Shown here piece by piece: positions 34,276 through 41,259 of a stretch of 44,417 nt of DNA. The notes below the pieces were generated by a model. That model was not told the DNA's origin. It did not search any database and worked only from the letters and a program-made list of their open reading frames with translations. This DNA comes from a virus: positions 1 to 44,417 of the IMG/VR virus record IMGVR_UViG_3300042374_000171. One strand, written 5' to 3'. The number at the start of each line of letters is the position of its first letter. Position 1 is the first letter of the stretch. The translations under genes and the position numbers were made by a program.

Positions 34276-37200
34276 ATGGCTACAGAGTTCATTGAAATCT
34301 CCGAAGAAGAATATCAAGGAGGGCCAAGTGATTTTATTGAAATCACAGAAGAAGAGTTTAATACACCTCAAGAACCAGCAGGCACTTCTCTTGGTGATAC
34401 ACTTCAAACAGCAGCAGAAGAATTAGAGGCAGGGGTTGGTAGGGCAGGCAGTGCATTTGCGAAATCAGCAGTTGGATCGGTAAGAATGTTTACTGATTTA
34501 TTTGGCGCAAATAATAAGGTGTCTAAAGAGATTGCTGGAGTAGAGGATTACATTGACCAGTTTACTACGGCTCAAGCCAAGCAAGACAAAGAAGAAATAT
34601 CTCGCTTGTTCCAAGAAGCAGAAGGAAAAGGTTTGGGCAATAAAGTTATGGCTGGTCTTAAAGCTGTAGCTGTATCTCCAGAGACGCTTGGGCCAGAGAT
34701 GGCGGGGTATATGCTTCCATCTTTAGCTGCTGGTTTATTAACCGGAGGCGCATCTATACCAGTTCAGATCGGAGCGCAGGCTACTATTGGTGCGGCCCAA
34801 GCAGCGGGTTCTATTAAGGGTGACATCTACCAATCAGTCAGAGACTACTCCCGCGAGCAAGGTCTTAACGAAGTTGAAGCTGATCGTGCCGCCACTGAAG
34901 CTCAATCCTATGGTGGTAAGAACTTGGACTTGATTCTTACTAACGCTGGCATTGGAGCATTGGCTGCATCAACTGGAGCAGAGAGAATAGCAACACGCAT
35001 TCTTACTGGTAGAGGGAAAGATGTAACAAAAAAAACACTCGGAGAGTTCTTGAAGCAAGGAGCTATGGCTGGTGGTGTAGAGGCTCTGACAGAAGGAACT
35101 CAAGAGGCAGCAGAACAAATCTCACAGAACATCGCCCTGCAAAGAGAAGGTAAAGATGTTCCTACCTTCCAGAATGTCCCGCAAGTAGCTACGATGGGCG
35201 CGGTGGCAGGCGGTGTTATCGGTGGCGGATTGAAGGGAGTTGAGTTTCTTTCAGCGGAAGAGAAGGCCGAACGAGACATCAATCGTTCCGCAGATAGGGA
35301 AGCAAGATCACTTTCCGCTACTGACTCTACAACGAAAAAGGTTATCAACGATCTTAACCAATCCGAGAACGCGATTGATTCTTTAAGGCAAGAGTTGGAC
35401 ACATTGGAGCCTACTGATCCAAAAGCGCAGCAATTGCGGATGCGAATTTCCGAGGAGCAAAAGAAAGCTACAGGACTAAAGCAGTCCCTTGGAGAAGAAT
35501 TTTTATCGGAACCGATAACCACGATAGAAGAACAGCAGGCTGAATTGGCGAAAGCAATTACCACTCCAGAAGCTGCACCCGCACCCGCCCCAGTAGAAGA
35601 AGTAGTCACGCCACCAGTTGAGGTAGCGCAATTTAAAACTCAAGAAATTCCATTAGGAATAAATAGACCTACAGTAGTAGATAAATCTTTACGCATTCTT
35701 ACTGATGAAGAATTTAATAAGTCTTATATAACAGCAAAAGACAATGTAGATAATGCTGAAGCAATGATTGATGCTGCTGGAGGTTCTTCTAATCTAACTA
35801 CAGATCAAAGAACGCAAATAGCTGAAGCGCAAGATAAGTGGTCTTCAGTTGAAATTGAGAATTTTCGTCGTAGCAATCAGGATGTAAATACAGAAGACTT
35901 ATTTGATAAAATGATTTCACTTGCCGACACCGGAAGTGATTCATCATATACGGAGTTCTCAACTCTGATGGATATTATTCAAGAGCGAGGTGGCGCAAAA
36001 CCAGAACAAGTAATTGCTCTTAAAAGAATTTTACCTAAACAATTGTTGGATAACCCAAACTATCAAGAGGCATTAAAAGGCAAGCTTACGAAGTTTAAAG
36101 AATGGATGGGAAGATACCAATCTGAAAAATCAGAAGTTGAACCAACCATCGCAGAAGCTGCCCCAGTCACCGAGCAAGCTGCACCAGCAGAAGCTCCCGC
36201 GCCAAAGGTTGCGCCTGTAGAAGAAAAAATATTCCAACCTGATGATGAATTAGTAATGCGATCACCATATACTGGTGAAGATACAATTGTTTCTTATCGA
36301 GGAAAGCCAAGCGATGGGCAAGCAGTTGTTTGGACTGGTAAAATGCAAATGCAAATTCCAGAATTTTGGCTACGAAAAAAAGGGGAGGAATTTACAGGGA
36401 AAGAAACCGAAGGGGAAGCCGCTCCTAAAATAGTGGCGGAAGAAATCGTTCAAGAAACGCCAAAAGAGGAAGTAGAAAAGCCACTACCCAAAACAAAAAA
36501 AGGACTTGTTGAAGAACTTGCTGGAGAAGAACCAAAAGATTATGCCCTTGCTCAAGACTGGAAAAAAACGGTTGCGGCACTAAACAAGCAAACCAAAGAG
36601 GAACTTGCATTTAAAGTTAGTAACTATAGGGAGAATGGCAAGAAGTTAAAAGCTACTCAAAAAATAACTTCTGAACTTTTCCCGAAGATAAAAGAAACTG
36701 TAGATGCGGCTGGAAATAAATGGGTTCAAGCCTTAAAAACTATTGCTTCTGAAAATGGATTGGAAAAATGGACTACCCTTGAAGGAAACTCCAAAGGAGA
36801 AGAAATATACCGACTTGCAAACCGGATTGCATACTCACAAATCAATGCGCCTAAAGCGCCCACCCCCGTAGTATCGGAAACGATAACACCCGCCGCAGAA
36901 CCAACAGGCATCGCAGTAGGCAACCGCATCCGCCTAGGCAGGAGTCCACAGACCTATACCATCGAAGAAGTAATCTCGCAAAGTGAAACAGAAAAGGCGA
37001 ACGGCGAGCAGTATTATTCTGTAAAGAACGAGAAGACGGGCGAGACGCAAGTAGTAGAGAAGGCTGATATGAAGCCTGTAAAGAAGTCGGCAGACACCCG
37101 CAAAACAGTGGTAGGCGATACCCAATACCAGACTGAAGGGGTAATACCAGAAGCTGAAAGGTTCACTGAAGATGAGTTGCGCGTTATCGTAAACGATATT

Positions 37201-41259: not shown

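Follow-up and report, generated by a model that had tools for sequence, protein, structure and literature searches.

A 44,417-base virus record from IMG/VR (IMGVR_UViG_3300042374_000171; this whole stretch of DNA is called the window here) encodes a giant protein that is best read as a polyvalent, gp16-like ejection protein. The protein appears to combine a conserved carrier with a cargo bay filled by a zincin; it would be loaded by pairing of its N-terminal tag with the tail of the upstream gene product, and the zincin would act in the host. A probability of roughly 0.68 is given to this reading. The gene is a single ATG-started frame of 2,327 residues on the plus strand (34276-41259) and takes 15.7% of the record, in agreement with the earlier note, which had put it at 16% and had pointed to HELGH at residues 1027-1031 and EE at 1076-1077. 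Both motifs are present at these residues, and HELGH is the sole HExxH in the giant. The layout is as follows.

34276..41259, plus strand: candidate giant ejection-type (polyvalent) protein, 2,327 aa, from the open reading frame and its relatives
34276..34365, plus strand: acidic, duplicated N-terminal tag, residues 1-30 (FIEISEEEY ... FIEITEEEF), net charge -10
34369..35625, plus strand: conserved N domain, residues about 32-450, from pairwise comparison of relatives
35626..37554, plus strand: replaceable cargo bay, residues about 451-1093, from pairwise comparison of relatives
36865..37083, plus strand: SH3/Tudor/KOW-like module, residues about 864-936, common to otherwise different cargos
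37138..37710, plus strand: predicted zincin metallopeptidase domain, residues 955-1145, with HELGH at 1027-1031 and EE at 1076-1077
37555..41250, plus strand: conserved C domain, residues about 1094-2325

The C domain is drawn over the end of the folded zincin segment because homology to zincin-less relatives restarts near residue 1094. The parts recognised in the giant are one enzyme domain and the SH3-like module; a combination of several disparate domains is clear in homologous giants. Searches against Pfam, PHROGs and PADLOC gave nothing above noise, no PolyVal or LPD model matched, and no transglycosylase was found with Pfam or PHROGs. For the C domain, LPD38 (PF18857) was considered and rejected, with no Pfam match and an hhalign probability of 0.1% against the LPD38 alignment. 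For membrane segments, which are themselves putative in T7, a crude Kyte-Doolittle test found no 19-residue stretch above 1.6.

Relatives of the giant are encoded in 18 IMG/VR loci, and further ones were found with a profile of the C domain. Pairwise comparison splits the protein in three: an N domain, a C domain and a middle that is unrelated even among close relatives. In the near relatives, identity reaches 94% in the N domain and 86% in the C domain while residues 451-1093 are replaced wholesale. The pattern is seen in L008 (N domain 94%, C domain 69%), L009 (93% and 82%) and L006 (89% and 80%), in each of which most of 451-1093 is unmatched. Several relatives have a second insertion site near 1387-1405. 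Among 22 proteins, made up of the window giant and the full-length relatives found through their N or C domain and so free of zincin bias, any HExxH occurs in 8 and the window-type zincin in 3; the rest carry other HExxH segments or none (14 of 22 lack the motif).

Other enzymes appear in the wider set. Distant giants with the window-type zincin also carry a C5-methylase, ParB_N and a weak PRTase match, or else ART-PolyVal; one relative with the window-type N domain ends in LPD38, and HD_4 matches in L083 at 1e-5, narrowly short of the Pfam cut-off. The 70-residue module upstream of the zincin (864-936), which is predicted to fold as an SH3/Tudor/KOW-like barrel (AlphaFold model, PDB comparison), shows mostly 54-85% identity across otherwise different cargos. 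It is kept at up to 85% in L040, L049, L051, L056 and others, between giants that are otherwise far more diverged or unrelated, as if it had spread alone. The swapped HExxH segments, the varied enzymes and the common SH3-like module therefore mark the middle as a cargo bay of mobile modules and linkers. By these sequence comparisons the protease is optional, swappable cargo, and the N domain and large C domain form a putative conserved carrier. The zincin is not a fixed counterpart of the podovirus transglycosylase, since most near relatives lack the domain and keep both flanking ones, so it cannot be a protease needed by all these virions. A tblastn search of INPHARED with the whole giant, the zincin, a capsid candidate, the tails and the tags gave no match at the limit used, and in a host search the C-domain profile, run once against genomes of bacteria and archaea, returned no relative.

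Where the zincin domain is present it is well conserved in its essential positions. The segment 955-1145 recurs in L001, L007, L016 and more distant giants of other phages, and HELGH is found in 20 of the 21 newly retrieved non-redundant homologous domains, the exception (L078) having HEIGH. Across 22 aligned domains the EE pair, an Asp five residues past HELGH and a Tyr are all invariant; outside the metal ligands, identity to the window is 30-42%. When 31 full-length relatives were shuffled, the expected total of HExxH motifs was about 0.065; 17 of the proteins have one, in a set retrieved in part via the zincin or the adjoining SH3-like segment, and a chance origin of HELGH in the giants appears unlikely.

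An initial AlphaFold model covered residues 853-1168, and the zincin was refolded alone because the SH3-like module dominated the PDB search of that model. The isolated domain (955-1145; pTM 0.77, mean pLDDT 81) is predicted to run from an N-terminal helix through three strands to the helix that holds HELGH, with EE in a helix further on, the zincin core topology given for polyvalent MPTases (PMC5512222). Among the best full-span VIA matches of this model in the PDB are ArdC, an antirestriction metallopeptidase (Z 3.9, rmsd 5.8, 124 aligned), lethal factor (Z 3.5) and MATCAP (Z 3.3), none of which reaches a convincing level; a PDB sequence search with zincin profiles gave no relevant match. 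The PDB matches are weak, and the zincin call therefore relies on motif, conservation and topology. These support a zincin metallopeptidase domain with all expected ligands present, which would be proteolytic. The earlier note's zinc metalloprotease is thereby upheld: the predicted topology is that of a zincin, and the motif is conserved within the homologues that carry the domain.

The giant is encoded among phage late and structural genes, with a weak terminase match. The genes ahead of it encode, in order, proteins of 320, 162, 363 and 468 aa, the last two of which are listed here together with the tail.

31772..32863, plus strand: 363-aa protein with one membrane-like segment, gp14-like by position
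32867..34273, plus strand: 468-aa upstream partner, gp15-like by position, which bears the tail
34190..34270, plus strand: basic C-terminal tail of the upstream partner, matching the tag (KRKVEVLTDNGGRYYLNAKGQKVYIK), net charge +5

A similar order is found in Pelagibacter phage Lederberg (tail tubular A, tail tubular B, acetyltransferase, internal virion protein, a 589-aa protein and an LPD38 giant), and in the relative L018 the gene two upstream of the giant matches a DNA ejection protein family. By gene order rather than proven homology, the giant is gp16-like and takes the third and last place in an ejection cluster. The proposal of an ejection-type protein is thus borne out at the level of the gene cluster, and the protein would be located in the virion. 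It is best filed as a phage-type polyvalent (ejected effector) protein in a T7 gp16-like position, one that is probably injected into the host. Elsewhere in the window, two 120-aa lipoprotein-like paralogues (23133-23495 and 26465-26827; 75% identical, no Pfam match) flank the region of a pectate-lyase-like tail spike gene, one on each side, and a GIY-YIG endonuclease gene lies on the minus strand at 701-1342 (E 4e-12).

The zincin would act inside the host after ejection. In most carriers the next domain after it is the C domain, or an ART followed by the C domain, and this mildly favours cleavage of the polypeptide near the boundary of cargo and C domain, which would free the cargo. Such self-release is ranked as the most likely role, tentatively. 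A possible alternative, almost as likely, is an effector role: once injected, the zincin would cut a host protein or a defence protein and leave the giant itself unprocessed. Exchange of the zincin against other cargo is effector-like, and host targets are one option in Iyer et al. (PMC5512222); its rather constant position next to the C domain or the ART speaks against a free-standing effector.

The second main element of the account, which is absent from the earlier note, is the tag of the giant and the matching upstream tail. A short motif opens almost every relative whose N terminus can be read. In 51 of 56 loci the beginning of the protein shows significant self-similarity and so is duplicated. 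The recurrent tag types number eight, five of which stand in front of one and the same N domain. The final 20-45 residues encoded by the upstream gene come in types that match the tags; FLDE and EFEF, two related tag types, have one tail type in common. These tag and tail classes were drawn up after the data were seen, whereas the correlation test is class-free: similarity of tags follows similarity of tails with a partial r of 0.58 once partner-body and N-domain similarity are removed, and none of 5,000 permutations reached this value. Where bodies are similar and tails differ, tags match in 0 of 45 pairs.

Loci were also retrieved by tail alone, and the next gene carried the matching tag in all 36 examined, some of them on contigs already seen. 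Four are new members of the FIEI class, the class of the window, for which the tag was predicted before the scan. In six of the 36 (L101, L102, L103, L106, L115, L116) neither gene body resembles that of the window and both tail and tag are recognisable; in four of these six phages the tagged protein is a complete frame of 435-466 aa with no giant cargo. Five YSDD-tag loci (four and Lederberg) are without the standard YSDD tail. Among YSDD-tag carriers, L001, L004, L017, L050 and L121 have an upstream tail that is coiled-coil-like or of another kind, not the usual short Phe-ending one. The cultivated LPD38 giants of Escherichia phage PTXU04 (L119) and Vibrio phage D274 (L122) also have a duplicated short motif at the start, with similar KVKEKYPxAS tails at the end of the upstream partners.

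At the DNA level tail and tag form one unit.

34150..34390, plus strand: tail and tag cassette across the gene junction, boundaries approximate (30-base steps)

The window and L124/L125 are near-identical only over about 34150-34375, with flanks mostly 50-80% alike. Against L008 the pattern is reversed: flanks are mostly 90-100% alike and the same stretch is 30-87%, lowest at the tag. These DNA alignments show that tail and tag are exchanged together as one unit of about 240 bp. Matching cassette junctions occur across L001-L136, with at least eight tag types. The cassette offers an explanation of how the giant may come to be loaded, and for that reason is part of the main account.

Tag-tail pairs nearly always lie in adjacent DNA, so linkage contributes to the correlation. 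An unlikely explanation, and one that deserves weighing, is that linkage is all there is, the junction being a recombination hotspot and the termini not interacting. It draws on the confinement of tail and tag to about 240 bp that move together, and on the adjacency of nearly all paired genes. Against it, both ends stay recognisable in the six phages with unrelated gene bodies, the pair is retained in L042 although an inserted DNA methyltransferase-like gene parts the giant from its partner (L042:4272-5153), a gap of 240 bases lies between tail and tag in L101, and the correlation persists with partner-body and N-domain similarity removed. In the preferred reading, the tag probably serves to dock the giant to the machinery that delivers it. 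As the virion is assembled, the duplicated acidic tag would bind the cognate tail at the C terminus of the upstream partner, and the giant would so be loaded into the internal core. During infection, the tag-tail complex would be ejected and the carrier would take its cargo through the ejection channel. Extended to podovirus-like phages at large, it seems likely that there is an interchangeable docking code in which gp15-like tails are specific to duplicated gp16-like carrier tags.

In a rather improbable reading, the zincin would act before packaging: as a maturation protease of the virion it would process the giant or neighbouring proteins, a role that has been proposed for P1 DdrB. DdrB has an MPTase domain and is cleaved before packaging (PMC5512222), and the zincin adjoins the C domain in most carriers; the MPTase-bearing virion RNA polymerase of N4, on the other side, is packaged unprocessed (PMC5512222). 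The 14 of 22 relatives without HExxH keep the same carrier parts; a conserved assembly step therefore cannot rely on the zincin, and a fixed maturation protease for the whole family was rejected. Of the roles offered in the earlier note, maturation of other internal proteins therefore fares poorly, most relatives lacking the domain, and a host target after ejection would fit better; more generally, a post-delivery role (self-release or a host target) would suit the data better than maturation. The weak PDB matches might suggest that the domain lacks peptidase activity and survives as a remnant, degenerate or purely structural; this is very improbable given metal ligands that stay invariant in so diverged a domain.

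The closest known systems are the phage-type polyvalent proteins with a zincin-like MPTase described by Iyer et al. 2017 (PMC5512222). Like these, the window giant is very large and is encoded where the phage late genes end, its zincin has HExxH and a Glu in a later helix, and its relatives bear ART-PolyVal, methylase, ParB and LPD38 domains. Unlike them, it has fixed N and C domains that frame a cargo bay and a tag matched to an upstream tail, of which no description was found in PMC5512222. As with gp16 of T7 and P22, the giant is the last ejection-cluster gene after gp14-like and gp15-like genes; it differs in being much larger, in its swappable protease cargo and in having no detected sequence relation. 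The N-terminal transglycosylase is a feature of T7 gp16, not of P22 gp16. The N-terminal "molecular tape" of T7 gp16 binds the C-terminal region of gp15 (PMC8954989), a contact that the proposed tag-tail contact would resemble and that makes it mechanistically plausible.

The DarB-like giant of the Bcep22/JC1 group, JC1 gp69 (4,515 aa), has been detected in purified virions (PMC9144972). It is polyvalent and has the same position after a virion protein of about 500 aa; unlike the window giant it has LPD38, LPD3 and a transglycosylase-like domain (PMC9144972), and the window giant had no sequence match in INPHARED at the limit used. Literature text searches, which covered subscription journals thinly and so give weak evidence of novelty, turned up no account of matched tags among ejection proteins. 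Polyketide synthases offer an analogy, and only that, in their docking domains, the class-matched C- and N-terminal elements of consecutive gene products.

Little is known of how phages select the proteins to be loaded and injected. In the present case a specific, modular contact between proteins, with at least eight types, is predicted from sequence alone, together with a cargo bay that exchanges enzymes, and the known T7 gp15-gp16 contact provides a structural precedent for the docking. If the docking code is true, carriers with different payloads would be exchangeable between phages through a swap of the cassette of about 240 bp. The docking contact and the cargo bay would make effector delivery by phages directly testable with peptides and with gene swaps in laboratory phages.
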